Part shown: positions 3,734 through 45,137 of the stretch, piece by piece
Layout: the number at the start of each line of letters is the position of its first letter
Position numbering within the stretch: the first letter of the stretch is position 1
From: Chryseolinea lacunae
GTDB lineage: Bacteria > Bacteroidota > Bacteroidia > Cytophagales > Cyclobacteriaceae
Reading direction: 5' to 3'
DNA: 64,000 nt
NCBI RefSeq assembly: GCF_016735595.1
Contig: NZ_JAERRB010000006.1
Span: 1 to 64,000 of the forward strand
Made by a program: the position numbers and the translations under genes
The notes under the pieces: generated by a model
What the model was told of the DNA's origin: nothing
Databases searched by the model: none
Seen by the model: only the letters and a program-made list of their open reading frames with translations

Positions 3734-3739
3734 TAAAAC

Positions 3740-15496: not shown

Positions 15497-17911
15497 TCAC
15501 TCCTGCTTCAATGCCTTTGCGGGATTTGCCAGGGCCGACTTCACCGTCTGGAAGCTCACCGTGGTGAGGGCCAGCAGCAGGATTATGGCCACGGGAAATA
15601 AAAATATCCAGGCGTTCAGGGTGATGCGCACGGCGTAGTTGGCGAGCCAGGCGTCCATGGCGAAGTAGGCCAACGGCATGGCTATTACGGCGGAGATAAG
15701 CACCACTTTGGCAAAGTCGCGAGAGAGCAGTCTCACTATTTGGAGCACCGATGCGCCCAGCACTTTGCGGATGCCGATTTCTTTTGTGCGCTGCACAATG
15801 GTGAACGACGACAAGCCAAACAAACCGAGACAGGCTATGAAAACTGCCAGTGCCGAAAAGGTTCCGATCACGCTTCCAAACTGCGCATCGGCGCGGTATT
15901 GCTGATTGTAGTTGTCGTCGAGGAAGAAATAGTGAAAGATACTGTTGGGATACACGTCAGCCCAAACCTGCTTCACGTCGGCGACGGCTTGTGTAACGTC
16001 CTGCCCTTTGAGGCGTATGGCAAAATAACTTGGCCAATCGGTGTAGCTGAACAACATGGGTATGTGTTCTTCCTTGGGCGACCGCTGGTAGAAATTTTTC
16101 AATACCCCGGCGATCACTGCGGGCTCGCCTTTCCAGCGCGTATAGTAGTCGAGCCGGCTGCCGATAGCTTCTTCCGCATTTGCAAAACCCAGGCGACGCA
16201 CGGCCTCTTCGTTGATGATCACCTTGTCGATGTTCGGGCTGCCGCTTTCGAAGTTGCTGCCCGCTACGAGTTTCATGCCCAGTGTTGGCACAAAGTCGGC
16301 GTCGATAGAGAACACATAATAGTTATAGCTTCCGCCTTCGTTTTTGTGGCCAAGGCGTTTCACGTTGTTGGTGGTGGCCAGTTCGTGCAGGCTCAGGCCC
16401 GGCAGCGACGTGGTTTGTGCCACACCCTGAACCACGGGTCGACGCAACAACTCCGTTTTCAAACTTTGGGCGGCCGACCGATAGAGCGAGTCGGAAAGTT
16501 CGAGGTCGGGTGCACGCACAATCAGCGTCTGATCGATGCTCATGCCCAGGTCGTATTTGCGCAGGTAGGTGATCTGAAGATAGACCGTGCACATGCAGGC
16601 CAGCAAAATTACCGTGGCGGCAAATTGAAACACCACAAGGGCCTGTCGCAACCGCTGGCCGTGTGTGGATGAACGGAATTTTCCTTTCAGTACCGTGGCA
16701 GGGTTGAAGGATGACAGCACAAAGGCCGGATACAATCCCGACAAGATCGATCCTGCCAACAGCAGGGCCGACCACAACATCCAAAAGGTGGTGTCGTCCA
16801 GCACGTGCATGGATAGCGGTTGACCTGTGAGCTGACGAAATAAGGGCAACGCGGTTTGAAAAAGTGCCAATGCCAGAAGCGACGCCAGGCCGTTCACTAA
16901 GACTGCTTCGGAGAGGAATTGAAAAATCAACTGCGACTTTAACGAACCCATCACTTTGCGTATGCCCACCTCGCGCGCACGTTCCATGGCGCGGGCTGTT
17001 GACAGGTTGATGTAGTTTACCCAGGCAATGATGATGATGAAGACGGCGATGAGCATCAAAAACGAAACGGTGCGTGCATTGCCGTTCACTTCGGGTTCAA
17101 ATGTTTTGTGTGAGTATAAATGTATGTCGCGCATGGGCTCGGCGGCGAGACGGTCTTTGTTGATTTTATCTTTCATCGTTTCCGAGAAAGCTACCAGCTT
17201 TTTGTTGAAGGCGTCTACGTCGGTGCCCGGCTTCATTTTGAGGTAAGTAAATTCGTTATTGTTTTCCCAGGTGTCGTCTTTGTACCAGGGATGTCTCTTC
17301 ATCACGCTGGTGTGTGACAACAGGATGTTGAATTTCAAGTGCGTGTTGGGAGGCACGTCGGCCATGACGCCGGAGACGTGGTAGAGCATCCGATCGATTT
17401 CCAGTGGCTCGCCCACCACGTCGGTGCGACCAAAATATTTGAGGGCGTTCGATTCGGAGATGACGGCCAGCATCGGCGCGGTGAGCGCAGTGGTGGTGTC
17501 GCCGGTGAGCAGGCGAACGGCAAACATGTCGAACGCCGAAGGGTCGGCAAAGTAGATGCCTTCATCCAGGAATTTACGGTCGCCTGTTTTTATTTCCTGC
17601 AGGCCATCGTTGTGAAACATGCGTGCGTAGTCGACCACTTCCGGCATTTTTTCTTTCAGACCGGGGCCGGTCATGGCGTAGGTTTCGCAGTCGGTCACCA
17701 CATATTCCGAGCCGTTGTAGAGATCGAGGGTCATGCGAAAAATATTCTCCGCGTTTTTGTTATACCCTTCGTAGCTGTGTTCGAACCTGACATAGTGCAC
17801 AATAAACAGAAACGCCGCCAGGCCCACAGCGAGGCCCACAATGTTGATGAATGAAAACGCTTTGTTTTTGAGAAGGGAGCGGTAGGCGATGCGCAGATAG
17901 TTCCGGATCAT
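15497..17911 (-). CDS. FtsX/MacB-type ABC transporter permease
   Basis: 804 residues from the ATG at 17911, which gives the standard family N-terminus MIRNYLRIAYRSLLKNKAF; the ATG 33 nt upstream adds an atypical leader. The layout is a first transmembrane helix (INIVGLAVGLAAFLFIVHYV), a large periplasmic MacB-type domain, FtsX domain 1 with three helices (about residues 280-420, including AREVGIRKVMGS), a second helix-plus-periplasmic-domain unit, and FtsX domain 2 at the C-terminus (KEIGIRKVLGASVLQIVRLLS). Such fused eight-helix permeases are abundant in Cytophagales and need a separate ATPase; none is encoded nearby. They are mechanotransmission-type exporters for peptides, lipoproteins or drugs; the substrate here is unknown. 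Confidence 0.93.
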   Translation of the reverse strand: MIRNYLRIAYRSLLKNKAFSFINIVGLAVGLAAFLFIVHYVRFEHSYEGYNKNAENIFRMTLDLYNGSEYVVTDCETYAMTGPGLKEKMPEVVDYARMFHNDGLQEIKTGDRKFLDEGIYFADPSAFDMFAVRLLTGDTTTALTAPMLAVISESNALKYFGRTDVVGEPLEIDRMLYHVSGVMADVPPNTHLKFNILLSHTSVMKRHPWYKDDTWENNNEFTYLKMKPGTDVDAFNKKLVAFSETMKDKINKDRLAAEPMRDIHLYSHKTFEPEVNGNARTVSFLMLIAVFIIIIAWVNYINLSTARAMERAREVGIRKVMGSLKSQLIFQFLSEAVLVNGLASLLALALFQTALPLFRQLTGQPLSMHVLDDTTFWMLWSALLLAGSILSGLYPAFVLSSFNPATVLKGKFRSSTHGQRLRQALVVFQFAATVILLACMCTVYLQITYLRKYDLGMSIDQTLIVRAPDLELSDSLYRSAAQSLKTELLRRPVVQGVAQTTSLPGLSLHELATTNNVKRLGHKNEGGSYNYYVFSIDADFVPTLGMKLVAGSNFESGSPNIDKVIINEEAVRRLGFANAEEAIGSRLDYYTRWKGEPAVIAGVLKNFYQRSPKEEHIPMLFSYTDWPSYFAIRLKGQDVTQAVADVKQVWADVYPNSIFHYFFLDDNYNQQYRADAQFGSVIGTFSALAVFIACLGLFGLSSFTIVQRTKEIGIRKVLGASVLQIVRLLSRDFAKVVLISAVIAMPLAYFAMDAWLANYAVRITLNAWIFLFPVAIILLLALTTVSFQTVKSALANPAKALKQE

Positions 17912-18032
17912 TTCGACGTGTTTAAGAGGTGTGGTCCATGCCACGTTCCAATATCAATGCCACGTTGAAAAGGCGCCGTGGCGTAGAAAAAGGGACATCT
18001 GTGAAGGTGGCGATTTCTTCTCCCTCCGTCAC

Positions 18033-18057
18033 CGAACAAAATTGTTCGTCAACGAAC
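18033..18057. promoter_or_regulatory. Overlapping palindromes in a divergent intergenic region
   Basis: CGAACAA-AA-TTGTTCG (18033-18048, 7-bp arms) overlaps GTTCG-TCAA-CGAAC (18044-18057, 5-bp arms). The cluster lies between the leftward permease gene and the rightward acetyltransferase gene, ending about 60 bp before the latter. It looks like an operator for a dimeric repressor; the regulator is not identified. Confidence 0.4.
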
Positions 18058-18117
18058 ATGGTGCATCGCCGCCGGCTTCCGATATTTGTCAACACAGAAA
18101 AAACTAGAGCAGCTTCC

Positions 18118-18426
18118 ATGGACGATATACAATTGCATTTGAACAGCGCCGGCCACGGTGCTTTCCTGCTGGAAAAAGACGGCGAACGCCTTGCCGAAAT
18201 GGTCATTAGTGTCATTGGCAAAAACCTGACGGTCTATCACACCGAAGTTTCCGAAAAGCTGAAAGGCCAGGGTGTGGCCGGGAAGATGTTGGCCCTGATG
18301 GTGGACTACGCCCGCACACACGACCTGAAGGTGATTGCGCTGTGTCCGTATGTGCTGGCCCAATTCAAACGCCACCCCGATCAGTATGCCGACATCTGGA
18401 ATCAGGACTGGCACCATCCGTCGTAG
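18118..18426 (+). CDS. GNAT-family small acetyltransferase (PF14542 type)
   Basis: 102 residues from the ATG at 18118; an open frame extends upstream to 17929 but its sequence is low-complexity basic and unlike the family, whereas MDDIQLHL is a normal start. The protein follows the single-domain Acetyltransf_CG pattern: GHGAFLLEKDGERLAEM, LTVYHTEVSEKLKGQGVAGK (acetyl-CoA pyrophosphate loop Q/RxGxG/A-like), MVDYARTHDLKVIALCPYV and the C-terminal HPDQYADIW. Members of this family (YidJ/YjdJ-like) are soluble; substrates are mostly unknown. It is transcribed alone, divergently from the permease. Confidence 0.9.
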   Translation: MDDIQLHLNSAGHGAFLLEKDGERLAEMVISVIGKNLTVYHTEVSEKLKGQGVAGKMLALMVDYARTHDLKVIALCPYVLAQFKRHPDQYADIWNQDWHHPS

Positions 18427-18453
18427 GCTTCGCGTTGAATTTGTGCGTGTGGG

Positions 18454-19005
18454 TTAAAGCACGTATTTGGCGTACTGTTTCATTTGGGTGAGGCCGCGTT
18501 GCAAAAGCTCGCGGGCCGTTGTTTCGTTAACGCAGAGGATCGTTCCAATCTCGGCAAACGACAAACCATCCTGGAGGCGAAGAATAAGCGCTTCGTATTG
18601 ACGCGGCGACAAGTCGCTCAGCAATTTCTGAAGGCGATAAAGACGTTGATCGCTGGGCTGTGCTTCGTTCAAATTTTCGTCCGACGACAATTCCGAAAAG
18701 TGAAATGCTTCTTCGATGAGGGCACCTTCGGATGTGAAAAAAGATTTCTGAGCGCCGTTTCGCAAAAGCCTGCGCCGGAGCGAACGATAGAGGTAGAAGC
18801 GTGCCGATGTGGTGGGCGAAACATTGTCGCGAAAGCGCCAGAGCTCCACAAACAATTCGTGCACGGCCTCTTGCACTGCCGCATCGTCGGCCCCGATCTT
18901 GCGACCGTAGTTGTACAAAAATTTGAAGTAGCGGTTAAACATCCAGGCAAAAGCTTCTTCGTCACCTCCCCGCATTGCGTCCCATTGCTTCAGCTCCATG
19001 TCCAT
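18454..19005 (-). CDS. ECF RNA polymerase sigma factor
   Basis: 183 residues. Region 2 is seen in EEAFAWMFNRYFKFLYNYGRK, QEAVHELFVELWRFRD and ARFYLYRSLRRRLLR. Region 4 is LSPRQYEALILRLQDGLSF, AEIGTILCVNETTARELLQRGL. The pattern is that of the Bacteroidota sigma-70 family. Such factors usually sit next to a FecR-type anti-sigma gene and a SusC gene, but neither adjoins this one, so its control is unknown. The first and third codons are both ATG; the difference is two residues. It converges with the acetyltransferase gene, leaving a 27-nt gap. Confidence 0.92.
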   Translation of the reverse strand: MDMELKQWDAMRGGDEEAFAWMFNRYFKFLYNYGRKIGADDAAVQEAVHELFVELWRFRDNVSPTTSARFYLYRSLRRRLLRNGAQKSFFTSEGALIEEAFHFSELSSDENLNEAQPSDQRLYRLQKLLSDLSPRQYEALILRLQDGLSFAEIGTILCVNETTARELLQRGLTQMKQYAKYVL

Positions 19006-19149
19006 TGTGCGTCTGATATTCCCGGCAATGAAGCAAAGGAATTTAATCTTTACAAACAGACTTCGGTGGAAAAAGTCTCGCCTTCAAAAAAGCCGCAAAA
19101 ACAGCGACCATGGCGGGTTTTGGAGGGAATGTTTTTGCCGGAATGCGGC

Positions 19150-19605
19150 CTATAAAACCTCCGCAAGTTTCTTGATTTCGACCAGGATTGGATTCCAGCC
19201 TTCGCCTTTGTTATAGGTTTCCGCATAGCGCCGTTCGCTATCCGCCACCGTGGCAAAGTCGCCTTGGGTGACCGTGAGGCGTGTTTGGTTTTGGATGGTC
19301 TCCAGGCTGTAGGTCACCGTGGTATAGTTTTCAGGCTTGTCTTCCATGGGCGTGTTGGGATCGAACGTGGTGTAGGCCAATCGCGACCCGTCTTTTTTTT
19401 CCACCAGCGTGCCTTTCACGGCCACCAGTTCTTTGCCATCAAATACCCCCTTCCAAAGAAATGGCCCTCCAATTTTCCAGTCCGACTCAATTTCGCAACC
19501 AAACATATATTGTCTTGTATACGCCGAGTTGGTTAACACTTCCCATACGCTTGCGGCCGGGGCATCGATGGTGATGGTGCTGGTAACAATCAAAGGTTTG
19601 CTCAT
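19150..19605 (-). CDS. SRPBCC/AHSA1-like domain protein
   Basis: 151 residues with the START/Bet v1-like helix-grip pattern of the AHSA1 family: ITIDAPAASVWEVLTNSAY at the N-terminus, then W-KIGGPFLWKGVFDGKEL, a VKGTLVEKKDGSRLAYT strand, YTTVTYSLETIQNQTRLTVTQGDF and a long C-terminal helix (NKGEGWNPILVEIKKLAEVL). It is cytoplasmic and likely binds a hydrophobic ligand or acts as an activator-type protein; function in this family is poorly predicted from sequence. It lies 46 nt downstream of an AraC-family gene on the same strand, an arrangement that suggests a two-gene operon. Confidence 0.9.
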   Translation of the reverse strand: MSKPLIVTSTITIDAPAASVWEVLTNSAYTRQYMFGCEIESDWKIGGPFLWKGVFDGKELVAVKGTLVEKKDGSRLAYTTFDPNTPMEDKPENYTTVTYSLETIQNQTRLTVTQGDFATVADSERRYAETYNKGEGWNPILVEIKKLAEVL

Positions 19606-19651
19606 AGATCTGATAGTTTTAATGCGTTGATCGGTGCAAAGATGCTGGTGG

Positions 19652-20575
19652 TCATGTTTCGCGGATTGCGTTTTCCGGATTTTTTCTCACGGCAAAGGGT
19701 GTCATTCCAAATTTTTTCTTGAACGCATTATTAAAGTGCTGGGGCGTGGCATAGCCCAGCTCCGACGAAATTTCGGCGGCAGTCTTTCGGGTGTCGCGCA
19801 AGTAGCGTTCGGCGAGATGGAGTCGTTGGGCGGTGAGGTAGCCAAACACGGTGGTGTCGAATATTTCCTTGAACCCACGCTTCAGTTTGTATTCATTCAA
19901 TCCCACAGCGCGGGCAATCTCCGAGAGATTGGGTGGACAATGTGCGCGTGCATTCACCAGGTCGCGCACGGCAATGATCTTCTCTTTATCGGTTTTGCTT
20001 TTCAGAAACGGTTCGCCCCGGACCACCGGTTTGGTGCAGGCTTCGGCCGAAAGCACCAACAACTCGACACTCTTCGACAACAAAAACATTTTCTTCACGT
20101 CGCCCGTGTAGGCATTGTGAAGAATTTGCTGAATCGCGGTTTGAATGCCCGGATCGATGGCTCCCCAGTGCGGCGACAACATCACGCTGCGACCGGCCAG
20201 AACATCATTAGAAAACTTTTCCAGCTCCGGCGTGGTGTTTTGCGTGTAGGCGATGAATGTATCTTTCGGAAACTGGATGCCAAACGTTTCGATCTCGGCG
20301 GTTTTGTTTTGCACCGTCATGTCGAAGCCTTGCGAATACATGAGGTTGTGGTGGCTGCCAATGAGGTCGAAGGTCTGGCCCAACTGCTGATAGGTGAAAC
20401 GATAGTCTCCTCTCATCCCGAAATGCAGGCGCACCACATCGGACTGGCTACTGGCCGAAAATGTGGTGTTGACCGCGCATCGTGAACGCGTGTGCCCCAA
20501 CCGGATGTCGTCGCAGGTCCATACGGTAGATTCACGCGAACCGCCTTCGATTTGCACTACGATTTTCTCTTCCAT
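19652..20575 (-). CDS. AraC-family transcriptional regulator
   Basis: 307 residues. The N-terminal ~190 residues form a sensor-like domain (VVQIEGGSRESTVW, VVRLHFGMRGDYRFTY). The C-terminal two-helix-turn-helix domain is clear: IRDL-type helix (ARAHCPPNLSEIARAVGLNEY), KLKRGFKEIFDTTVFGYLTAQRLH, then AAEISSELGYATPQHFNNAF and the signature end KKKFGMTPFAVR. It resembles the PchR-like class. It is upstream of the SRPBCC gene and likely regulates it or a nearby function; no operator was identified. Confidence 0.92.
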   Translation of the reverse strand: MEEKIVVQIEGGSRESTVWTCDDIRLGHTRSRCAVNTTFSASSQSDVVRLHFGMRGDYRFTYQQLGQTFDLIGSHHNLMYSQGFDMTVQNKTAEIETFGIQFPKDTFIAYTQNTTPELEKFSNDVLAGRSVMLSPHWGAIDPGIQTAIQQILHNAYTGDVKKMFLLSKSVELLVLSAEACTKPVVRGEPFLKSKTDKEKIIAVRDLVNARAHCPPNLSEIARAVGLNEYKLKRGFKEIFDTTVFGYLTAQRLHLAERYLRDTRKTAAEISSELGYATPQHFNNAFKKKFGMTPFAVRKNPENAIRET

Positions 20576-21022
20576 GGTCCTTGATCTTCGCGCTCAAGGT
20601 TAAAGGTACTTCATTATTCTGCGCGATGCCGTAGATAACTGCAGGAGCCGTGTTAAAAATCCCGCGGTCTGCGTCAGTAGTATGGCACAGCATACGACAC
20701 TGACCCTCCAGTTATTTTTTCAAGTACTCTGTGTTGGCAAAAAAAAGGCCCCGAATTGCCATTCGGGGCCAGCGGATGAATATTTCATCCAACCTAAACT
20801 AATCGCTGATGAGCCATTATCCAATATGCATGCCAACCCCTTAAAACGCGCTATTTGAAGTCGATTCGACTATTTGATACCCCACCGGCTGTACGCGCAT
20901 GGATATTTTTTGGCCGGTCGCAGTCCACCGATGAACACTTTCTGATTACCTTTCGGGTGCCCTAAAACTATCCAGGCACCAAACTCATCTTACCGTAACA
21001 CCTGAAAAAAACTAGCGTCTTT
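20576..21022. other. Divergent intergenic region with terminator and a second hairpin
   Basis: No protein gene is supported. It holds a strong leftward intrinsic terminator (20739-20770) immediately preceded, on the leftward strand, by a second short hairpin (GGATGAA/TTCATCC, 20774-20790). No leftward gene lies to the right that could feed this terminator, so a leftward small RNA is possible. The rightward ompH promoter should lie at its right end; TACCTTTC near 20950 is a near match to TAnnTTTG. Confidence 0.5.
20739..20770 (-). terminator. Intrinsic terminator, leftward
   Basis: The stem GGCCCCGAA (20747-20755) / TTCGGGGCC (20762-20770) has a 6-nt loop and is followed leftward by eight T residues (20739-20746). 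This is a textbook Rho-independent terminator on the minus strand. Confidence 0.85.
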
Positions 21023-21595
21023 ATGAAACTTCTTTCTCCGAAAACCTGCACACTCACCCTCATCACCCTGTTGCTTTGCGGCGCTGCCCTGGCACAAACA
21101 CCCCTGAAAGTCGGCTATGCCCGCATCGACTATATTTTCACACAATTGCCCGACGCCAAACAAGTGGAGTCTACCATGCAGACCCTTCAAAAACAACTTC
21201 AGGCACAAATTGAAGGAAAGGATGCCGAGCTGAAAAAGAAATATGCCGAATACATTTCGGGCCGCGAAACTATGTTGGAACCGGTGCGCAACAACACCGA
21301 AACCGAAATGCAACAAATGCAGGAGAACCTTCAGAAGCTGCGGGAAGATGCCCAGACCACACTTCAGAATAAACAAAATCAACTGCTGGAACCCGTCTAT
21401 AAAAAAATCGGCAAAGGCATTGAAGACACCGCGAAGGAAAACGGCTACCAGTTCATCGTGAGCGACGTGATTGGCGGCACCCGGCTGTTGCTCTATAGCG
21501 ATCCTTCCATGGATGTGTCGGATCTGATTCTGAAAAAACTGGGCGTAACTCCCAAACCCGTCGCGGCCACCACGCCCGCTCCGGCTACGCACTAA
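21023..21595 (+). CDS. OmpH/Skp-family periplasmic chaperone
   Basis: 190 residues. The signal peptide ends at AALAQ (about residue 25), followed by the family opening VGYARIDYIFTQLPDAKQVE. A long charged helical arm runs from about residue 45 to 140 (MQTLQKQLQAQIEGKDAELKKKYAEY ... VRNNTETEMQQMQENLQKLRED), then the short C-terminal beta part (NGYQFIVSDVIGGTRLLLYSDPSMDVSDLILKKLG). Skp trimers hold unfolded outer-membrane proteins in the periplasm. An Ala/Pro/Thr tail follows. It is a monocistronic gene: a strong terminator follows it, before the split-receptor operon. Confidence 0.93.
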   Translation: MKLLSPKTCTLTLITLLLCGAALAQTPLKVGYARIDYIFTQLPDAKQVESTMQTLQKQLQAQIEGKDAELKKKYAEYISGRETMLEPVRNNTETEMQQMQENLQKLREDAQTTLQNKQNQLLEPVYKKIGKGIEDTAKENGYQFIVSDVIGGTRLLLYSDPSMDVSDLILKKLGVTPKPVAATTPAPATH

Positions 21596-21796: not shown

Positions 21797-24655
21797 ATGC
21801 TGCGAACCTTTACCCTGCTGCTGTTTCTGCTTGCATCGTGGCAAGCTCACAGCCAAACCCGCACCATCAGCGGAACGCTGCACGACACCGACGGAAGTCC
21901 GCTTCCCGGTGTGAATGTGATAATAAAGGGCACCCAGACGGGAACCGTCACCAATGCGGATGGCTACTACTCCATACAGGCGCCTGTTGGATCGACGCTG
22001 GTGTTTGCGTTCATCGGCATGCAAACACGCGAAGTGGTGGTGAGCCCCGAAAATTTTAAGACACCGCCGAGAATTCCCGCGCAGAAGCGCATAGAAAAAC
22101 CGCAGCCCTCGCTCTACGCGATGCTGTTCAAAGACTCCACCACGTTGAACACACCGGGTGTGACGGTGCTCTCCGACAAGACCCCATCCTATACCAACCG
22201 CGCCAACGTTGCGCCCGAACGCATCAAGGCCATTCGACGCGTGGGGCAGCACTATACGGTTGTTGCCAACGACCCCAACCCCGTGGGCGGCATAAGTGGT
22301 CAGTTCACCAACACCGTCAGTTTCGAAACCATCAACAAACTGCCGTCGCTTCAAAATGTCTATGCACAAGGTCGGCCGCAAGGCGGAAGCGCGCAATGGC
22401 AAGGCCCCGACAACAACGAAATTTTCAGCTGGGGTCCGCTTCTCCGAACGCTCGAATACGACGGCAGTGTGTATCCGTATGATCGTCAAGGCAGGTTGGT
22501 GACGGCGGGAACGGGCAGTGGAGCATCGGCCGCCGCATATGATGCCTCTGTTTTTCGAACCGCCATCTCCACATCAACGGAGCTTCAGCTCACAGTGCCC
22601 TCCTTCAAAAAAGGAAATATCAGTGTGTCGCTTGAGAACCGAAATCGCCAGGGCATTCTTCCAAACGCACACTACACGCGACAAAACGCGTCGCTGTCAT
22701 TGAGAAATGTGCAGCTGTGCGATCGCACAAAATTGCAGGGACTGTTTTCGTACAATCATTCATCCGGCCGGCTCATGAATCGCGGGGCAAACCTGGCCAC
22801 CATTGTCGGCTCGATCTATCGCACACCGCCCACCTTCGACAACGCCAACGGTCTGCAGCGAAATGCGGCGCTTCATTCAACGGAGGCCTACCGGCTTGCC
22901 GATGGTTCTGTCCGGTCGCATGCGCCTGAACTTGTCGATAATCCCTATGACCTGCTCAGCAACTTTCCAGATCGCGAAAAACAAAACCGGTTGCTGGCCA
23001 ACCTAAACCTGCAACGCACGGAAAAACCGTTTGGCTATCTCGCATCGGCGAGCATAGAAAAACAACAAAACGATATCGTGCACGGATTTCCCATAGGCTA
23101 TGCGGGATTTGCCGACGGCCGGATCACACATCGCGTAGACGATCAAACCCTGCTCAGTGCCATGGTGTCGCCGACCTACAAACATCCTTCACACGATTTG
23201 AAAGTCAACGCCTCCTATGTCGTCAACGCCGAATTCCGGAAGCTCAACCGCACCGACGGCACACGCTTTCGCGAAGGTGACTATTCTCTTGAAGCAGCCG
23301 GTATGCGCACCCAGATGCAACAAACACCTTCGCGAACAAGCCATGAGTTGTCGGTGAACCTGCAGGAGCGTTATGAGGATTTCATTCTATTAAAGCTGGC
23401 AAACCGCAGCTACTTCTCGAATACAGCGCCGGCCGATTCGTATACAAACTTCTTTCCTACAGCCAGTCTCAGTGTGGACCTGGCAAACAAACTATACATC
23501 GACCAAGTCGACTTACTAAGACCGTATGTGTCACTCTCACGCACGCTACACGAAGCACCCTTGATCTATAACAACTGGTCATATCTCTCCACACGTCAGA
23601 CGCTCCAGGCTTACAACACCTTCAATGAATCGACGGAGCTTTTCTTCCCGTCGGGCCTCGCACCGGAAACCACACGCAAACTCGAAACGGGTGTGCGCCT
23701 GGATGCGTTCCGGTATTTTTCGTTCGAGTTTTCCTATTTCAATTTTCAAACCGACAACTTTGTGAGCCCAATATATCGCAACGGTCATTTCGCCCTGGGC
23801 AACGCGGCATCCATCAGCAACACGGGCGCATCGGTCGCACTGGCCTTCAACTCTTCGAACTGGAACCAAACGTACTGGGGTGTTGACCTGAAGTGGAGCA
23901 CCTATAATAACGTTGTGGATGCACTGGCTACAACCGATCCCTTCATTGCACTGGCGGGTTTTGAATCGGTGGCCTCCGTGTTGGCGCCGGGCAAGCCGGT
24001 GGGCGCGCTGTATGGCACAACGTTTCAACGAAACGAAAACGGCGACATGATCATTGGTGCCGATGGCTTTCCGCTGGTAGACAACACCTTGAAAATGATT
24101 GGCAACCCACAACCCGATTGGGTCCTGGGCTTCACCAGTTTCCTGAACATACATCAATTCAAAATTTCCACGACGCTCGATTTCAAACACGGTGGCCAGG
24201 CCTGGAACGGAACAGCCCGCATGCTGGACTATCTCGGCAAGTCTGCCACAACGGCAGAGCTACGCAACACCAGCGCCTATGTGTTTGAAGGTGTGAACGA
24301 GCAAGGGCAGGTGAACACACAGTCCGTGAACTTCGCCGATCCTTCGCAACCCGTGGCCAGCAACCGGTGGGTGCGCTATGGCTGGGCTGGCGTGGGCGAA
24401 GAGTATATTCAGAATGCATCGTGGTTCCGGATGAGTGAGTTGTCGCTCTCGTATGCCACACCCCGCGTCAACCAGCGGCAGTTCATCAAGGAAGCAAGGT
24501 TCTCGCTTGTTGGTCGTAATCTTTTTCTGGTCACGCCCTACGAAGGTGTGGACCCGTCGTCGACATTGTTCGGCTATGCCACCGGGTCGGGCCTCGACCT
24601 CTTCAACACACCCAGTACCCGCAGCTTCAGTGCCATCGTAACCCTTCTCTTTTAA
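21797..24655 (+). CDS. SusC-like outer-membrane barrel lacking its plug domain
   Basis: 952 residues. The signal peptide ends at AHSQ (about residue 20). A CarboxypepD_reg-like domain spans about 22-92 (ISGTLHDTDGSPLPGVNVI, GTQTGTVTNADGYYSI, LVFAFIGMQTREVVV). In SusC proteins a TonB-box-like EVVVVGYG and a ~130-residue plug should come next. Here a ~50-residue linker leads straight into the region that normally follows the plug (TNTVSFETINKLPSLQNVYAQG) and then a full SusC-type barrel ending in SLVGRNLFLVTPYEGVDPSS and the terminal strand RSFSAIVTLLF. The reading frame is uninterrupted, so this is not a frameshift. The stop codon is 4 nt before the next gene, which encodes the missing plug. 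A TonB-linked transport role therefore probably needs the partner protein. Confidence 0.9.
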   Translation: MLRTFTLLLFLLASWQAHSQTRTISGTLHDTDGSPLPGVNVIIKGTQTGTVTNADGYYSIQAPVGSTLVFAFIGMQTREVVVSPENFKTPPRIPAQKRIEKPQPSLYAMLFKDSTTLNTPGVTVLSDKTPSYTNRANVAPERIKAIRRVGQHYTVVANDPNPVGGISGQFTNTVSFETINKLPSLQNVYAQGRPQGGSAQWQGPDNNEIFSWGPLLRTLEYDGSVYPYDRQGRLVTAGTGSGASAAAYDASVFRTAISTSTELQLTVPSFKKGNISVSLENRNRQGILPNAHYTRQNASLSLRNVQLCDRTKLQGLFSYNHSSGRLMNRGANLATIVGSIYRTPPTFDNANGLQRNAALHSTEAYRLADGSVRSHAPELVDNPYDLLSNFPDREKQNRLLANLNLQRTEKPFGYLASASIEKQQNDIVHGFPIGYAGFADGRITHRVDDQTLLSAMVSPTYKHPSHDLKVNASYVVNAEFRKLNRTDGTRFREGDYSLEAAGMRTQMQQTPSRTSHELSVNLQERYEDFILLKLANRSYFSNTAPADSYTNFFPTASLSVDLANKLYIDQVDLLRPYVSLSRTLHEAPLIYNNWSYLSTRQTLQAYNTFNESTELFFPSGLAPETTRKLETGVRLDAFRYFSFEFSYFNFQTDNFVSPIYRNGHFALGNAASISNTGASVALAFNSSNWNQTYWGVDLKWSTYNNVVDALATTDPFIALAGFESVASVLAPGKPVGALYGTTFQRNENGDMIIGADGFPLVDNTLKMIGNPQPDWVLGFTSFLNIHQFKISTTLDFKHGGQAWNGTARMLDYLGKSATTAELRNTSAYVFEGVNEQGQVNTQSVNFADPSQPVASNRWVRYGWAGVGEEYIQNASWFRMSELSLSYATPRVNQRQFIKEARFSLVGRNLFLVTPYEGVDPSSTLFGYATGSGLDLFNTPSTRSFSAIVTLLF

Positions 24656-24659
24656 ACTT

Positions 24660-27600
24660 ATGAAACGCATCGTCTACATCGCCCTCCTGCTCTTCGCATT
24701 TGTTTTGCAGGCATCGTTCGACAACATTCCTTTCCTGGAAAAACTGAAAGCTTCTTTGCAACACTACAATCGGCAATACCCCGAAGAAAAAGTGTATCTG
24801 CAATTCGACAAAACTTTCTATAAGCCCGGAGAAGACATCTGGTTCAACGCGTTTGTGTTGAACAGCAACCATCACACGGCCACCACCATCAGCGACGTGG
24901 TGTATGTGGAGCTCATCGATCCCAAGGGAAACCTGGCCACACGCCTGGAGCTCTTTGTAAAAGAAGGCACAAGCCGCGGCGACTTTAAACTAACCGAAGC
25001 CGCCGCCGGTGGGCTTTACAAGATCAAAGCCTACACGCAATGGATGAAAAATGGTGGCGACGATAATGCGTTCAAGAAAGAGATTATCGTGCAACGCGTC
25101 ATCACACCACGGCTGTTGCTGAAACTGGATTTTGAAAAGGAAGCCTATGGCGTCGGCGACCGCGTTACGGCCGATCTTTCGGTGAGAGATTTGCGAAATG
25201 AACCTGCCCGCTCCCATGTAAAATGGTCGGTGTCGTTGGCCGGCAGCAACATTCTTTCTTCCACAGCAGAGACCGACAACACCGGCGCAACGAAAATAAC
25301 ATTCACGCTTCCGCAGGATTTAAAAACCTCCGACGGTCTGTTGCAGGTTTTGGTTGAGAACAACGGCGTGCAAGAATCCATCTCCCGATCCGTTCCTATT
25401 GTGCTGAACAAAATTGCGCTTCAATTTTTTCCCGAAGGTGGCGACCTTGTTGAAGATGTGCCGACACAAGTAGCGTTCAAAGCCGTGAACGAATTTGGCA
25501 AAGGCGCCGATGTGTCGGGGCAGGTTTTGGATGACGATGGTAAATTTGTTTGCACATTCGAAAGCTATCACATGGGCATGGGCGCGTTTTCGTTTGTTGC
25601 GAAACCAGGCAAGCAGTATCGGGCTATCATCACTAAACCTGTGGGCATCGCTGGCGCAACCCTGCTCCCTAAGCCACAAGCGCAGGGCTTTGGCCTGACC
25701 AAAGCAGCGCAGGACGATGACGATGCCACGTTTGAGATCCATGCACCGTTTGCCACCGATGGTTTTCTGGTCGGCCAGGTGCAGGGCGAACTTTATCATA
25801 CCGGCAAAGTGACGTTGAAGGCTGGTAAAAACACCGTCGCCGTGAATACAAAAAAATTTCCCCCGGGCATTGCCGTGTTCACCCTGTTTGATGCACAAGG
25901 TCTTGAACAGTGCGAGCGTCTCGTGTTTGTGAATGCCAAAACGCAGTTGAACATCAAAATAAAGTCCGACAAAAAACACTATCAGCCGCGCGAACAAGTA
26001 TCGCTCGACATTGAGACCACGGATGCCAACGGCCATCCTATCCCTGCAAAGCTCTCGCTGGCCGTGGTCGACGATCAACTCATTTCGATGGCCGACGACA
26101 AACAGGACAATATTCTTTCGTGGTGCCTGTTGTCGTCGGAACTGAAGGGCGCCGTGCAAGAACCCTCCTTCTATTTCGACAAGACCGAACCAAAAGCCAC
26201 GCTGGCTCTTGACTACCTGCTGATGACGCAAGGATGGAGAAGGTTTAACTGGTCGACTCTGGCTACACCAAAAGAAATTACCTATGCGCCCGAAAAAGAA
26301 AACCTGCTGCTGGGTTCGGTGAGCGACGGAAAAAAACTCAGCGCAAACGAAGAGGTGATCCTTATGGAACTTAACAACCGAAGACGCATCGCCAACGTGA
26401 AAACCACCGGCGACGGCAAATTCATGTTCAAAAATATCGATCCAACCACACCCATTCTTTTGCTCTCCCGCAGGCCCAACAAAATGGTTCTTCACAAAGG
26501 CAACACCAGCATGGACACCATTTTTCCTTCGGGTGTGGGCGATGACGCTGCGCCTTCTTCGGACGTTCGAAGTGAAACGTTGCAGGACAACGTCGGCCCA
26601 GCCGTGGAAAAAAATCCTGGCCTCAATTCGTCCACAGGTTTCGATATGTCTATGGACCCGGACATTCAGCAACTGAGTGAGGTGGTTGTGGTGGGTTATG
26701 CTGCAACGGAACGACGCGATATGACCGGGAGTGTATCGGTTGTCCGGTGGAATGCATTGGAAGGTTTCGCGCCAGCACTGTCGTTCGAGACTGCGCTGCA
26801 AGGAAGAGTAGCCGGCGTTCAGATTCAATCCCAACCCGGCAATCCGGGATCGCACACCGGCATCGTCATACGCGGCGCCAGCTCCCTGGCCAGCGGCAAT
26901 CGCGAACCTCTTTTTGTGATCGATGGTGTGCCCGTGGGGAACAGCCTGAACACAAATTTCTCAACCGGCAGCATCATCAACCCAAACAACATCGAAAGCA
27001 TTACGGTGCTTCAATCGCCCGAAGCCTCGGCGCTCTATGGCAGCCAGGCCATCAACGGTGTCATTGTCATCAACACGCGTTCGCGGATCTGGCGTGGGAA
27101 CCTTTCGACAAAAAGGAAAGCATCGCGCTATGACCATCTCACCATTTTTCCGCGCGCATTTTCGGCGGTGCGCGAGTTCTATGCACCGGTCTATTCCAGG
27201 AAAGAACAGGGTGCACCTCGAAACGATTTTCGCACCACGGTGTATTGGAACCCGACGGTGGTCACCGATAACAGAGGCAAGGCATCGCTGTCGTTTTTCA
27301 ACGGCGATATCACCAGCACGTTTCGCATAACCGCAGAAGGCATGTCGGGGCTGGGCTTGCTGGGAAGAACAGAAGAAACCTATTTCACTGAGCTTCCCTT
27401 TTCGATCGATGCAAAGCTGCCTGAATTTATCGGCTATGAAGACACGCTGAAAATCCCTGTGCGCATCAAAAACACCACTTCCAAAATCCTGAGCGGTGAA
27501 CTTGTCATCACCGTGCCCGATGCCCTGACCGCGTCTGCCAAAACGGTGAACGTGAATGTGGCGGCGCACCAAACACAAACCACCTACATCACCCTTGTGC

Positions 27601-29282
27601 CCCAGGCGAAAGCCGGTGTGTATCCCGTAACGATACAGCTAAGCAGTGGAGACTATCGCGACGAGATTCACAAGTCGCTGCAAGTTCACCCCGTGGGTTT
27701 CCCCGTGCAGCTTGACTTTGGTGGAAAAGCGCTGGACACTTTGTTTCGGTTTGCAGTGCACGATGTCGAGAAAGGTTCGTTGCAGGCCAGGCTCACGGCC
27801 TATCCCGACGTGATCAGCGACCTGTTCACCGGGGCCGAGTCCATTCTGCGCGCACCACACGGTTGCTTCGAGCAAGTTTCGTCGAGCACGTTCCCCAACA
27901 TTCTCGCCCTGCAGTATCTGCGCAAAGCAGGGATCTCAAATCCCGCTGCAGAAGACATCGCACTGCGGTATATCAAGAGCGGCTACCAGCAACTTGCTGC
28001 CTACGAAATAAAGGACGGTGGCTTTGAGTGGTTTGGACATCCGCCCGCACACGAGGCATTGAGTGCCTATGGTTTGGTAGAATTTCACGAGATGAAAAAA
28101 GTTTATCCGGGCGTAGACGAAGCCATGCTCACGCGAACACGCGACTGGCTGATGTCGCGCCGCGATAACGCTGGGGGGTTTCGTCAAAATCATGGCAAGT
28201 ATGGTTTCTCTTCGGCACCCAAAAACACCAACAATGCCTACATCGTCTATGCGTTGGCACTCACCGGAAGCAAAGACATCCGGAGAGAATATGAAACCGC
28301 GCGCGACGAAGCGTGGAGCAACAAAGATTTGTATCGCATGGCTCTTTTGGCAAACGCCGCCTTTGAGTTGAACGCAATGGACGACTATCAAAAATTTGTA
28401 ACACACTTCCGTCACCATGTCACATCAACGCAATTGAAGTCCGTCACTGCAGAAAATTCAATTACCTGGAGCCAGGGTGTGTCGCTGGAAAACGAAACGA
28501 TCGGCTTCTGGGTGCAAGCGTTGCTCAAGGAAGGGTTGCTCCATAAGGCTGTCGTTGATCGCTGCATTCATTTTCTTCTGGAACATCGTCAATATGGAAG
28601 CTTCGGGTCAACCCAGGCCATAACGGTGTCGCTGCAGGCATTGACTGCCTATGCCAACGTGATGCGCGCCATCCAGGAAAGTGGCGACGTTGCGCTCACG
28701 GTGAATGGCCAACGCTCGCAAAGCCGCCACTTCGAAAAGGACACCAAAGACAAACTTGTGCTTGATCGTTTTGCCCATCAACTCACGTCCGATGGTTCAC
28801 AAACGGTTCGCGTTGCCTTCGAAGGAACAAAGCTTCCATTGCCCTACAGCCTTCAGTTGCAGTGGAGTTCAAAAACACCGCCATCGCACGAACGTTGCCC
28901 CGTGAAAATTGAAACCGTACTGAATCAATCGTCGGTTCGTGCAAATGAAACCGTGAGGCTCCGCATTCAGTTGGCAAACAAAACAGCGAGCGGCTTGCCC
29001 ATGACACTAGCGGTTGTGGGAATTCCCGCAGGACTGGCCGTGCAACCGTGGCAACTGAAGGAACTACAGGAGAAAGGTGTCTTTGACTTCTATGAAATTC
29101 TGGAAGACCGCATCGCTTTCTATTATCGCGAGATGGGACCTTCTGAAACACGCACCATCAACCTCGACCTGAAAGCCGAAATTCCGGGCCGCTATACGGG
29201 CGCAGCCAACGCAGCTTATTTGTACTACAGTCATGAATGGAAACATTGGACAAAGGGGTTGACCGTGAATGTTGCCCAGTAA
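24660..29282 (+). CDS. Alpha-2-macroglobulin-like thioester protein with an embedded TonB plug domain
   Basis: 1540 residues; the signal peptide is about 1-19 and there is no lipobox cysteine. An MG2-like domain starts near residue 44 (KVYLQFDKTFYKPGEDIWFN), followed by more beta-sandwich macroglobulin domains to about 640. Residues 672-810 form a complete SusC-type TonB box and plug: LSEVVVVGYAATERRDMTGS, ALQGRVAGVQIQSQPGNPGS, IVIRGASSLASGNREPLFVI, DGVPVG, NPNNIESITVLQSPEASALY, GSQAINGVIVINTRS. Next is the A2M (MG7) domain (YWNPTVVTDNRGKASLSF, residue 862 on), a thioester motif GCFEQ (C1069, Q1072; consensus CxEQ), the helical thioester domain and a C-terminal receptor-binding-like sandwich. 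A2M proteins trap proteases covalently; bacterial forms act in the periplasm. The plug sits roughly where the bait region would be. Confidence 0.9.
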   Translation: MKRIVYIALLLFAFVLQASFDNIPFLEKLKASLQHYNRQYPEEKVYLQFDKTFYKPGEDIWFNAFVLNSNHHTATTISDVVYVELIDPKGNLATRLELFVKEGTSRGDFKLTEAAAGGLYKIKAYTQWMKNGGDDNAFKKEIIVQRVITPRLLLKLDFEKEAYGVGDRVTADLSVRDLRNEPARSHVKWSVSLAGSNILSSTAETDNTGATKITFTLPQDLKTSDGLLQVLVENNGVQESISRSVPIVLNKIALQFFPEGGDLVEDVPTQVAFKAVNEFGKGADVSGQVLDDDGKFVCTFESYHMGMGAFSFVAKPGKQYRAIITKPVGIAGATLLPKPQAQGFGLTKAAQDDDDATFEIHAPFATDGFLVGQVQGELYHTGKVTLKAGKNTVAVNTKKFPPGIAVFTLFDAQGLEQCERLVFVNAKTQLNIKIKSDKKHYQPREQVSLDIETTDANGHPIPAKLSLAVVDDQLISMADDKQDNILSWCLLSSELKGAVQEPSFYFDKTEPKATLALDYLLMTQGWRRFNWSTLATPKEITYAPEKENLLLGSVSDGKKLSANEEVILMELNNRRRIANVKTTGDGKFMFKNIDPTTPILLLSRRPNKMVLHKGNTSMDTIFPSGVGDDAAPSSDVRSETLQDNVGPAVEKNPGLNSSTGFDMSMDPDIQQLSEVVVVGYAATERRDMTGSVSVVRWNALEGFAPALSFETALQGRVAGVQIQSQPGNPGSHTGIVIRGASSLASGNREPLFVIDGVPVGNSLNTNFSTGSIINPNNIESITVLQSPEASALYGSQAINGVIVINTRSRIWRGNLSTKRKASRYDHLTIFPRAFSAVREFYAPVYSRKEQGAPRNDFRTTVYWNPTVVTDNRGKASLSFFNGDITSTFRITAEGMSGLGLLGRTEETYFTELPFSIDAKLPEFIGYEDTLKIPVRIKNTTSKILSGELVITVPDALTASAKTVNVNVAAHQTQTTYITLVPQAKAGVYPVTIQLSSGDYRDEIHKSLQVHPVGFPVQLDFGGKALDTLFRFAVHDVEKGSLQARLTAYPDVISDLFTGAESILRAPHGCFEQVSSSTFPNILALQYLRKAGISNPAAEDIALRYIKSGYQQLAAYEIKDGGFEWFGHPPAHEALSAYGLVEFHEMKKVYPGVDEAMLTRTRDWLMSRRDNAGGFRQNHGKYGFSSAPKNTNNAYIVYALALTGSKDIRREYETARDEAWSNKDLYRMALLANAAFELNAMDDYQKFVTHFRHHVTSTQLKSVTAENSITWSQGVSLENETIGFWVQALLKEGLLHKAVVDRCIHFLLEHRQYGSFGSTQAITVSLQALTAYANVMRAIQESGDVALTVNGQRSQSRHFEKDTKDKLVLDRFAHQLTSDGSQTVRVAFEGTKLPLPYSLQLQWSSKTPPSHERCPVKIETVLNQSSVRANETVRLRIQLANKTASGLPMTLAVVGIPAGLAVQPWQLKELQEKGVFDFYEILEDRIAFYYREMGPSETRTINLDLKAEIPGRYTGAANAAYLYYSHEWKHWTKGLTVNVAQ

Positions 29283-42089: not shown

Positions 42090-45000
42090 TTAGAAAGTTA
42101 CCTGCACACCACCCAAAAATGATTTAGCCGGCGGGTACACCAGGTTGTCAACACCAATGGTTGTGTTGGAACCTGCGTAGGTGTTCACCTCCGGATCGTA
42201 GCCGGAATATTTGGTGATGGTGAACAGGTTGTTCGTGCTCACATACACACGGATGCTGCTCACACCTTTTATCGTCGGCAGACGGTAGCCCAGTGTGATG
42301 TTTTTGCAGCGCAGGTAAGATCCGTCTTCTACAAAACGATCGGATATCGGCAGACGGCCACCCTGTAACGGGCTTGCGTACTCGTTGTTTGGGTTGTCGG
42401 CCGTCCAATGATCTACCACACCTTCCAGCAGGTTGCGTTGTCCCAGCGGATTTTCGAACGAGGCACGGCTCACGTTGTAGATGCTGTTGCCGTACGTGCC
42501 CGAAAGAAATATGCTGAGGTCAAAATTCTTATACGACACATTCGTGGAAATGCCATAGATAAATTTCGGATTGGGATTGCCGGTGATCACCTGGTCTTCG
42601 GATGTGATCCGGCCATCGCCATTGTAGTCTTTCACTTTTGTTCCGCCGATGCGTCCATCCGAACCCGGAATGATGGTCTCGCCGGTTTGATAGATGCCGT
42701 CGAACAGATACGTTTTGAATACACCCACAGGTTCACCCACTTTTAATAGCGTATAGGTGGTGATAAACTTCTCCTGTGTCTTGCCGTCGATGTCGGTAAC
42801 CTTGTTCCGGTTGGCGGTGAAGTTTGCCCCCACATTCCATTTGAAATCGCCCGACGAAATGATGCGCGCGTTCGCCGACAGCTCGATCCCTTTGTTCTCG
42901 ATGCCCCCCAGGTTGGCAATCATGGTTTGATAGCCCGAAGAGAATGGCAGCGATTGATCGTATAACAAATCTTTGGTTGTCTTTTTATAGACATCAATGG
43001 TCAGGTCGAGGCGATCGCTGAACAAGCTCACATCCAGACCGATGTTTGCCTGCAACGATTTTTCCCAGCGCAAATCCGGGTTGGAGATACCCGCAGGGCT
43101 CAGGCCTTTGGTGTAGCCGTGGTTAAATTGATAGTCGCCACCCGTAGTTTGAAGCGACAATGATTTGTAGGGATCGATGGCGCCGGCATTTCCGGTGAGG
43201 CCATAGCTTCCGCGCAGTTTCAGATCGCTGATAAACGTTACGTTCTGCATGAAGCTCTCTTCAATGATACGCCATGCGGCCGATGCAGCCGGGAAGAAAC
43301 CATAGCGATAGTTTGCGCCGAACTTGCTCGAACCATCGGCGCGGGCCGTGACGTCGAAGAAGTACTTATCCTTATAGCCATAGTTCACGCGACCCATATA
43401 CGAGTCAAGGCGTTCTTTCGACTTGAAGCTGCTGGTCGACACGGTGTTGGCCAACTCCAGACGCTCGTTGGTAGTGGCGTCGTTCGGGAAACCATTTCCA
43501 AGAATCAGGTTGACGTCGTTTTGAGAAGTCTGCGTGGCAAAAACGCCGGTGAACTTCAATGTATGATCCTGCGCCAACACCGTGGTGTAGGTAAGAATGC
43601 TTTCGTGCAACAAGGTGAGACCGTTTCTATGTTCTTTGCGGCCCGATCCTGATGTAGCATTGAGATCCTTCGTTGCAATGATGGAACGTGGCGAGTAGTA
43701 GTTGTTGATGCTTCCCTGCACATCGGCGTTGAACGAGGCGCGATAGGTAAGTCCTTTCAACAATTGTGCTTCACCATACACATTCACCAGCACGCGCTTG
43801 AGGTCGGTGCGGTTCTTGATGGCGGCCAATCCCAATGGGTTGGTCACTTCGCGGTAGCGGCCGTCGCGCTGTTCGGCAAAGGGGAAAAGCGATCCGTCGT
43901 CGCGATAGGGTTTCAACGTAGGTGGTGCGCCAAGCGCGGCACCCACAATACTCCCTGTCACCACATCGGCGTCGCCAACGGTTTGTGAGCCGGTAGGGAT
44001 GCCGTTGTTGATGTTGAAGCTTCCCATGAGGCTGGTTCCCATTTTCACGCGATCGTTGATTTTGTGATCGATGTTGAGACGCAGCGAGTAACGTTTAAAG
44101 TTTGAGTTGATGATGATACCGTCCTGGTTGAAGTAGTTCATCGACAGGGCGAGTTGAGTTTTTTCCGATCCGCCATTCACCGACAGCTGATGGTTTTGGA
44201 TGGGCGCTGAACGGAAGATGAGGTCCTGCCAGTTCACACCTTGTCCTTCGGCGGCGGGGTCGGCATACACCTGGGTTTTGAAAACTTCGTTTTCCAGCTG
44301 TGCAAACTGCGACGCGTTCATCATGTCGAGCGTCTTGCGCACTTCCTGGACGCCATAGTAACCTTCGTACGACACCCGTGTCGATCCGCTTTTTCCGCGT
44401 TTCGTGGTGATGAGCACCACGCCGTTGGCACCGCGGGCACCGTAGATAGAGGTGGCCGAAGCATCTTTCAGCACTTCAATGGATTCAATGTCGTTGGGGT
44501 TGATGGTCGACAGCGGGCTCACATCGTTGATGTTTCCGCTGTTGGCAATCTGGATGCCATCCACGACGTATAGGGGTTCCGATGTGCCGTTGATGGAGTT
44601 TGTTCCGCGGATGCGCACACTCACGTTCCCGCCGGGAGCCGACGAGTTCTGGGTGATCTGCACACCAGCCACACGGGCCTGCAGGCCTTGCGCCACGTTC
44701 GACACCGGGGTTTGCACGAGGTCGGCCGATTTCACCGAAGCGATCGAGCCGGTGGTTTCTATTTTGCGTTGTGTGCCATAGCCCACCACTACCACTTCGC
44801 TAAGGGTTTCCACATCGGTGGCCAGGGTCACGTTCAGTGTGGTTTGGTTGCCCACCGTCACTTCCTGTGTGGTGTAGCCGATAAACGACAAGGTGAGCAC
44901 ATCTTCGGGTTTCACATTATCCAGCATAAACACGCCATCCCCATCCGTAGTGGTGCCTCGCGACGATCCTTTGATGAGCACGTTAACCCCGGGCAGCACC

Positions 45001-45137
45001 TCGCCCGCATCGGACTTCACGGTGCCTTTCAGGGCAGCGCCCTGTGCCCACACAGACGCCGGACTGCCGAGCCAATACAGCATGATTCCCAGCAGCAGGA
45101 AAACACGCGTTGCAGTAGAACATTTTCTCATAAGCAT
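42090..45137 (-). CDS. SusC/RagA-family TonB-linked outer-membrane transporter
   Basis: 1015 residues. The signal peptide ends at VWAQ (about residue 32). A CarboxypepD_reg-like domain follows (LKGTVKSDAGEVLPGVNVLI, DGVFMLDNVKPEDVLTLSFI), then the TonB-box-like LSEVVVVGYGTQRK and a complete plug domain (SIASVKSADLVQTPVSNVAQ, GLQARVAGVQITQNSSAPGG, VRIRGTNSINGTSEPLYVVD, NPNDIESIEVLKDASATSIY, GARGANGVVLITTKRG) and a 22-strand-type barrel ending in PPAKSFLGGVQVTF. It forms the pedal-bin transporter with SusD. It is the first gene of the leftward PUL and divergent from the LacI gene; CGATTGAAATCG sites lie 42-64 bp upstream of its start. This normal SusC is the reference for seeing what the other receptor (21797-24655) lacks. 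Confidence 0.97.
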   Translation of the reverse strand: MLMRKCSTATRVFLLLGIMLYWLGSPASVWAQGAALKGTVKSDAGEVLPGVNVLIKGSSRGTTTDGDGVFMLDNVKPEDVLTLSFIGYTTQEVTVGNQTTLNVTLATDVETLSEVVVVGYGTQRKIETTGSIASVKSADLVQTPVSNVAQGLQARVAGVQITQNSSAPGGNVSVRIRGTNSINGTSEPLYVVDGIQIANSGNINDVSPLSTINPNDIESIEVLKDASATSIYGARGANGVVLITTKRGKSGSTRVSYEGYYGVQEVRKTLDMMNASQFAQLENEVFKTQVYADPAAEGQGVNWQDLIFRSAPIQNHQLSVNGGSEKTQLALSMNYFNQDGIIINSNFKRYSLRLNIDHKINDRVKMGTSLMGSFNINNGIPTGSQTVGDADVVTGSIVGAALGAPPTLKPYRDDGSLFPFAEQRDGRYREVTNPLGLAAIKNRTDLKRVLVNVYGEAQLLKGLTYRASFNADVQGSINNYYSPRSIIATKDLNATSGSGRKEHRNGLTLLHESILTYTTVLAQDHTLKFTGVFATQTSQNDVNLILGNGFPNDATTNERLELANTVSTSSFKSKERLDSYMGRVNYGYKDKYFFDVTARADGSSKFGANYRYGFFPAASAAWRIIEESFMQNVTFISDLKLRGSYGLTGNAGAIDPYKSLSLQTTGGDYQFNHGYTKGLSPAGISNPDLRWEKSLQANIGLDVSLFSDRLDLTIDVYKKTTKDLLYDQSLPFSSGYQTMIANLGGIENKGIELSANARIISSGDFKWNVGANFTANRNKVTDIDGKTQEKFITTYTLLKVGEPVGVFKTYLFDGIYQTGETIIPGSDGRIGGTKVKDYNGDGRITSEDQVITGNPNPKFIYGISTNVSYKNFDLSIFLSGTYGNSIYNVSRASFENPLGQRNLLEGVVDHWTADNPNNEYASPLQGGRLPISDRFVEDGSYLRCKNITLGYRLPTIKGVSSIRVYVSTNNLFTITKYSGYDPEVNTYAGSNTTIGVDNLVYPPAKSFLGGVQVTF

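Follow-up and report, generated by a model that had tools for sequence, protein, structure and literature searches.

To our knowledge, all known natural TonB-dependent transporters (TBDTs) carry their plug in the same chain as the barrel; how far the plug leaves the barrel is still argued. Here we describe two adjacent genes, at positions 21797-29282 of a 64,000-nucleotide stretch of the Chryseolinea lacunae genome (NCBI RefSeq assembly GCF_016735595.1, contig NZ_JAERRB010000006.1, positions 1 to 64,000; hereafter the window), in which a SusC-like barrel without a plug is followed by an alpha-2-macroglobulin (A2M) that contains a TonB box and plug. The closest described relatives of the barrel are the SusC/RagA transporters (BT2264, Bt1763 and RagA), which the locus resembles in its N-terminal extension (NTE) and SusC-type barrel, in the type of its box and plug and in a fold like that of 5fq6, but from which it differs in that box and plug are encoded by another gene and no SusD is found beside any of 33 such pairs. 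In vitro, the barrel of the levan SusC was found to contain its plug in open states only (PMC7782687), and the SusC plug may leave its barrel in vitro. In the same study, deleting the VDEVVV motif of Bt1763, or changing it to alanines, impaired growth on levan in the way that deletion of SusD does (PMC7782687).

Another report describes a soluble FpvAI plug that, supplied in trans, lets a plugless FpvAI barrel import pyocin S2 again and, citing earlier work, partly restores ferripyoverdine uptake through plugless FpvAI (PMC10994204), so a plug can work in trans. The split FpvA is a laboratory construct, however, and its plug is free, outside any larger protein. The Type I bacterial A2Ms (ECAM/YfhM of E. 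coli and SaA2M of Salmonella) share with the A2M described here the MG domains, the A2M_BRD domain and a thioester-containing domain (TED) with a CXEQ motif; here, in contrast, the bait position is taken by box and plug, and the partner is an outer-membrane barrel rather than PBP1c. The E. coli A2M is described as a periplasmic trap anchored in the inner membrane and fired by bait cleavage (PMC4498604). The Type II A2M MagD, part of the Pseudomonas Mag complex, is likewise a periplasmic A2M in a multi-protein complex, but it lacks the CXEQ motif, and the available part of the report mentions no plug or outer-membrane barrel for it; MagD is reported to guard Pseudomonas against some injected cell-wall enzymes and not against another attacker tested (PMC12663445). 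Among the matches listed in the open-access literature, we found no natural plug acting in trans, no plug-bearing A2M and no plugless SusC beside an A2M.

We consider it probable that the pair forms a natural TonB-dependent outer-membrane receptor split into two chains, with the A2M acting as gate and trap, and the best reading of one step, the supply of the plug in trans to the neighbouring barrel, we regard as highly probable. The features of the two genes are as follows.

21797-24655, plus strand: plug-less SusC/RagA-like outer-membrane barrel gene, 952 aa (Pfam, TIGR04056, AlphaFold, Foldseek)
21797-21853, plus strand: putative Sec signal peptide of the barrel protein, residues 1-19 (by eye from the sequence)
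21866-22054, plus strand: NTE of the barrel protein, a CarboxypepD_reg-like domain, residues 24-86 (Pfam PF13715)
22055-22276, plus strand: linker of the barrel protein at the site of the missing TonB box and plug, residues 87-160 (AlphaFold model, profile comparison)
22301-24652, plus strand: SusC-type beta-barrel, residues 169-952 (TIGR04056 214-981; pLDDT mostly >90)
24660-29282, plus strand: A2M with TonB box and plug, 1540 aa (Pfam, TIGR04056)
24789-25052, plus strand: MG2 domain, A2M residues 44-131 (Pfam PF01835)
25704-26084, plus strand: A2M_BRD domain, A2M residues 349-475 (Pfam PF07703)
26292-26495, plus strand: small beta domain before the linker, A2M residues ~545-612 (strands at 550-611 in the model)
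26673-26699, plus strand: TonB box LSEVVVVGY, A2M residues 672-680 (in the low-confidence linker 615-690)
26712-27062, plus strand: TonB-dependent receptor plug, A2M residues 685-801 (Pfam PF07715, E 2e-18; genome-wide search)
26871-26873, plus strand: arginine 738 of the plug IRG motif (conserved in A2M and SusC plugs)
27237-27500, plus strand: A2M domain (MG7), residues 860-947, the next domain after the plug (Pfam PF00207)
27807-28652, plus strand: TED, residues 1050-1331 (Pfam PF07678)
27864-27875, plus strand: thioester motif CFEQ, A2M residues 1069-1072 (sequence)

The 952-residue barrel protein is plug-less, as the original prediction had it. Its NTE, usual in SusC proteins, is matched by CarbopepD_reg_2 at residues 24-86 (E 4e-16), and the best stretch of the TIGR04056 match joins residues 169-952 to model positions 214-981, with a whole-protein score of 218 bits that lies under the cut-off of 368. 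A complete plug within 21797-24655 had been named beforehand as the finding that would speak against a split receptor; Pfam found no Plug domain in the protein at E values up to 1. The AlphaFold model, built from a 32-row alignment, has a mean pLDDT (predicted local distance difference test) of 87.1 and a confident barrel from about residue 170 on, and at the position of box and plug it has a stretch with pLDDT below 50 (residues 88-135) followed by a lone hairpin (143-157). A hidden or degenerate plug was rejected on these grounds, the blank Pfam result and the low-confidence stretch with its lone hairpin; a profile-profile comparison of residues 84-200 with SusC plugs aligned just 15 columns, at a probability of 3.9%. 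The top Foldseek match of the barrel model is SusC 5fq6 (E 2e-48, TM 0.69), and its 22 best solved matches are all of SusC/RagA type, RagA among them. The ordinary SusC at 42090-45137 has its own plug and matches TIGR04056 from 3 to 981 in one piece. Across the whole genome, TIGR04056 scored 56 of 145 candidates; in each of the 56 listed the match runs across the model, starting at position 1-3, and the plugless barrel of the window is not among them.

The ORFs (open reading frames) of barrel and A2M are separated by 4 nt and cover complementary parts of the TIGR04056 model, the barrel 214-981 and the A2M 66-204 (A2M residues 660-807, E 6e-44). A solved SusC chain is divided in the same way: on 5fq6_B, A2M residues 665-808 cover chain residues 16-168, while the barrel profile covers 159-984. 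A2M residues 672-810 are box plus plug, as had been proposed, with the box starting at 672 and the Pfam plug proper at 685-801, sited between the BRD and A2M (MG7) domains, and the box resembles the VDEVVV of Bt1763. A profile of 20 plug-less A2M relatives aligns onto human A2M from residue 725 onward, which falls at the end of the human bait region (residues 690-728); the stretch before MG7 is of low complexity by eye in most of the 14 relatives viewed (L124 and L137 have domains there instead; loci and genomes are given as L and G numbers). These two observations place the box and plug, by position, in what appears to be the bait region, where other A2Ms are cut. In the model of A2M residues 1-960 (mean pLDDT 77.5) the MG domains are confident and the linker 615-690, which contains the TonB box, has pLDDT below 50. 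Complement C4b, TEP1, CD109 and human A2M are among the best structural matches of this model, and ECAM ranks 20th. The small beta domain of the window A2M stands where relatives have a CarboxypepD_reg domain; Pfam gives no match at it, and a match there in 51 of 64 relatives. A CFEQ thioester motif is present in all 97 A2Ms classified.

The architecture is real and conserved. Relatives were searched with the C-terminal part of the A2M, or with the whole A2M for the named genomes, which gave 12 loci (L001-L009 classified; L010-L012 are short A2M-like forms); the pair in L004 is that of Chryseolinea serpens DSM 24574. An A2M was found in 5 of 395 genomes of the phylum, 14 of 196 of its own family and 14 of 397 of another family. 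In the class, 66 of 395 genomes had one, and 62 of these 66 were examined (G1270, G1209, G1001 and G1160 were left out). The 98 A2M loci fetched, less two duplicates (L055 of L004 and L080 of L003) and with the window added, make 97 distinct loci. A SusC-type plug is present in 33 of the 97, and a plugless barrel lies upstream in 33 of these 33; no plug-profile match occurs in the barrels of the 33 pairs. The second finding named beforehand as refuting a split receptor, homologous barrels that always have a plug of their own and A2M plugs that never adjoin a plugless barrel, was thus not what the relatives show. Beside the other 64 A2Ms no plugless barrel was seen, although for eight of them less than 2.9 kb of upstream DNA is covered (L064, L122, L009, L137, L112, L106, L132 and L094). 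In 30 of 32 fetched pairs the start of the open A2M frame lies anywhere from 79 nt ahead of the barrel frame's end to 3 nt beyond it; the gap is 487 nt in L067, and the barrel of L065 is truncated by the contig end before the NTE. An assembly error or frameshift as the source of the split is excluded, because 32 further distinct pairs are split identically. One pair (L061:3107-10843) has an A2M frame broken upstream of the plug, by pseudogene formation or a sequencing error, next to an intact plugless barrel.

A reciprocal search with a profile of the 32 plugless barrels, which scored only the 2-4 best candidates of each genome, returned the same set from the other side. In the own family the 14 best matches lie in exactly the 14 A2M genomes, and the next match (E 6e-213) belongs to an ordinary SusC; for the class, the top three matches fall in the three plug-A2M genomes already known. 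Eight lower matches were fetched: seven are SusCs with their own plug and the eighth is L164, a single chain described below. A SusD adjoins all seven fetched ordinary SusC relatives (five by Pfam; L165 and L167 by a SusD profile), whereas a profile of six SusDs, which does detect those of L165 and L167 although neither was used to build it, found none in 182 neighbour ORFs (>=90 aa, 3.5 kb upstream and 2.5 kb downstream) of the 33 pairs. A conserved third gene was rejected, as no neighbour family occurs in more than 4 of the 33 neighbourhoods. In the window, the region 15497-21595 contains, on the minus strand, an ADOP-like permease (below the family cut-off), an extracytoplasmic function (ECF) sigma factor and an AraC-type regulator (helix-turn-helix part only), and an OmpH/Skp-like gene (21023-21595, plus strand) lies directly upstream of the barrel. 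In L003 a 243-aa ORF with two TonB_C-like matches (3730-4458) lies about 2.6 kb upstream of the pair.

To place the barrels we used a quick tree of 62 barrel domains (midpoint root, with support from the Shimodaira-Hasegawa-like approximate likelihood ratio test, SH-aLRT). The 33 plugless barrels form one side of a branch with support 100; L164 stands next to them, again with support 100, and ordinary SusCs with their own plug follow. L164 (5911-10833, genome G1264) is a single chain of 1641 aa with the order NTE-VIT-VWA-TonB box-plug-SusC barrel and is, by its predicted domains, a receptor with a built-in inter-alpha-inhibitor-like module. It is thus the nearest barrel and has a large domain joined to box and plug, but differs from the pairs in being one chain, in having VIT-VWA instead of an A2M and in being the one example seen. 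A large domain attached to box and plug is thus already on record in the line of the plugless barrels. Where the plug lies inside an A2M the chain runs on into MG7 and cannot run on into the barrel, which must accordingly come as a separate, second chain.

The supply of the plug in trans fits the pairing in 33 of 33 loci, the single chain of L164, the kept arginine of the IRG motif and the precedent of FpvA trans-complementation, and the proposal made in the original prediction is to this extent supported. A TonB-box-like motif is readable by eye in 33 of 33 plug-A2Ms; a strict TonB-box pattern, which misses 9 of the boxes of 32 fetched plug-A2Ms, is matched in none of 34 fetched barrel ORFs. 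Of the 33 A2M plugs, 32 have the IRG arginine, the exception being the divergent L067, and so do all 38 SusC plugs of the own genome. Some polar barrel residues that are shared by 20 SusCs from the window's genome are also kept among the 32 plugless barrels (E624 in 28, N382 in 29, N669 in 31 and N908 in 32), while others, such as R599 and D601 of the ordinary SusC, are not. Such residues lock plug and barrel together in other TBDTs. The IRG arginine as a marker of barrel-partnered plugs was dropped, since it does not cleanly set apart the short A2M-like forms. Similarly, lipid anchoring was dropped as a contrast between plug-A2Ms and other A2Ms: a lipobox pattern occurs in none of the 32 fetched plug-A2Ms, and by eye in the window's A2M there is none, versus 7 of 64 others, of which at least one is false (L105).

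Several results weigh against the docking of the A2M plug in its neighbour, and we set them out together. Plug-like domains occur in L010, L011, L052 and L054 with no SusC barrel found beside them, for L052 and L054 within the 7-8 kb fetched around each; the latter two lack the IRG arginine, and in L010 and L011 the VDG motif is immediately preceded by an IPRA stretch that may be the misaligned counterpart of this arginine. (L054:958-3756 and L052:1997-4462, of the window's own genome, are short A2M-like genes with MG2, a plug-like stretch and an MG7-like end but without TED.) The A2M plug modelled alone reaches a pLDDT of only about 40-65. Pairwise plug and barrel distances are hardly related (Spearman 0.32, partial 0.03, 30 pairs, with L055, L080, L061, L067 and L077 left out), while those of barrel and A2M body correlate at 0.81-0.82; co-evolution of plug and barrel, tried as positive proof, thus came out negative. 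The plug is short, and six of the 33 A2M plugs score higher with an ordinary SusC plug of the window's genome than with any other A2M plug, a seventh being tied, as if A2M plugs were sometimes exchanged. A generic SusC plug that fits any SusC-type barrel would explain the absent covariation, which gives no support for a private interface. The A2M plug of L077 (4028-11093), whose barrel is short at 813 aa, is 55% identical to an ordinary SusC plug of the window's genome and 46% to the best-scoring other A2M plug, and an exchange is possible there.

The number of independent events is a further weakness. The distribution of the plug requires two changes both in a tree of 97 A2M rows and in one of 64 rows, from which L067 and some of the plugless rows were left out; a single clade is not rejected (approximately unbiased test, AU, p 0.22). 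Because of these two changes, the association of plug and barrel, which on these trees is old and strict, nonetheless rests on few events, one gain and about one loss. L008, L009 and L139, without plug and barrel, are placed among the plug-bearing rows with weak support and on long branches. Joint loss of plug and barrel is suggested for L008 and L009 (of which L009 has only 454 bases of upstream DNA covered), because both retain a TonB-box-like motif, EVVVTGYS and ELIVTGYS.

In the mechanism that we propose, the plug would enter the partner barrel from the periplasm and close the pore, and the A2M would be held under the pore by its own plug, with the TonB box presented in the flexible linker; both steps are likely. 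Less surely, TonB would pull the box, loosen the plug and open the pore, and the A2M below it would form a covalent trap for entering proteases or other proteins, which a protease cutting the linkers beside the plug would fire. That the A2M gates the pore and keeps a covalent trap tethered beneath it is likely, and the opening of the gate by TonB is plausible. Since box and plug sit at the bait-cleavage place, TonB force could also strain the MG6-MG7 junction as it opens the pore. Such a mechanically fired trap, in which the proton-motive force, and not only proteolysis, would arm or expose the thioester of a complement-like protein at the pore, is a bold extension that is compatible with the results but that we hold to be improbable.

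The original prediction had offered three functions for the docked A2M: gating of the barrel, presentation through it and coupling of TonB energy to it. Gating combined with TonB coupling fits best. A TBDT plug has its two ends on the periplasmic side, and because of this presentation through the barrel is unlikely. Export, in which the A2M or a part of it would be pushed through the barrel and displayed on the surface, has a parallel in the TBDT Oar, which is reported to be needed for secretion of the PopC protease in Myxococcus, but it is very improbable, given that a plug inside the barrel blocks it and that the A2M is a large protein built of folded domains in a row. A purely structural role, in which the plug replaces the bait region and never enters a barrel, so that the pore is permanently open or otherwise gated, would account for the missing covariation and for the reuse of plug-like or half-plug domains in Bacteroidota proteins (L010, L011, L052, L054) next to which no SusC barrel was found. 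We consider it unlikely, however, as a plugless barrel accompanies every plug-A2M, the single-chain relative L164 has a large domain on its plug, and the A2Ms keep box and IRG arginine although the box pattern applied here picks up none in the barrels.

Two other readings would keep the docking and change its purpose or exclusivity. The barrel could use TonB to import proteins or peptides, as RagAB does, with the A2M thioester capturing cargo rather than serving in defence. The parts would be identical to those of the gate and trap, and RagA is among the structural matches of the barrel; this possibility, which we regard as small but real, is weakened by the lack of a SusD lid gene in the 182 neighbour ORFs, versus 7 of 7 ordinary relatives, and by the protective role ascribed to A2Ms studied elsewhere. 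Alternatively, the barrel could dock several plug-bearing proteins (A2M, VWA-plug, half-plug), the A2M being one of these. Two pairs do have such a gene directly upstream, a VWA-plug gene with a type IX secretion tail in L051 and a double half-plug gene in L049, and some plug sequences look swapped (L077), but only 2 of the 33 pairs were seen to have such a neighbour, with no search made across all, and no neighbour family recurs in more than 4 of the 33 neighbourhoods, so we give this reading a low probability. The VWA protein of L051 (879-3203) carries an orphan plug, and the half-plug protein of L049 (3105-3590) is 162 aa long with two half-plug repeats; the latter adjoins the plugless barrel directly.

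Beyond the SusC-type plug, other modules occupy the same site in this group of A2Ms. Among the 64 A2Ms that lack a SusC-type plug, Pfam finds TonB_C in six (L007, L064, L098, L136, L137 and L138), and another plug type, which the SusC plug profile misses, sits at the plug site in L124 and L137; in all, 7 of 64 have either module, L137 both. Genome G403 has a plug pair (L057) plus a TonB_C A2M (L064). TonB_C binds TonB boxes, and plugs enter TBDT barrels. Docking on the TonB-receptor machinery would thus seem to be a theme of this A2M group, because a domain that binds TonB boxes or enters barrels sits at the same spot of the A2M.

If the split-receptor reading is true, plug and barrel could be purified apart, mixed, mutated and pulled separately. 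It would join two machineries unlinked in the literature searched, the TonB system and the thioester A2M of the complement family, and bacterial A2Ms, whose role is unclear, would gain a definite address at an outer-membrane pore.

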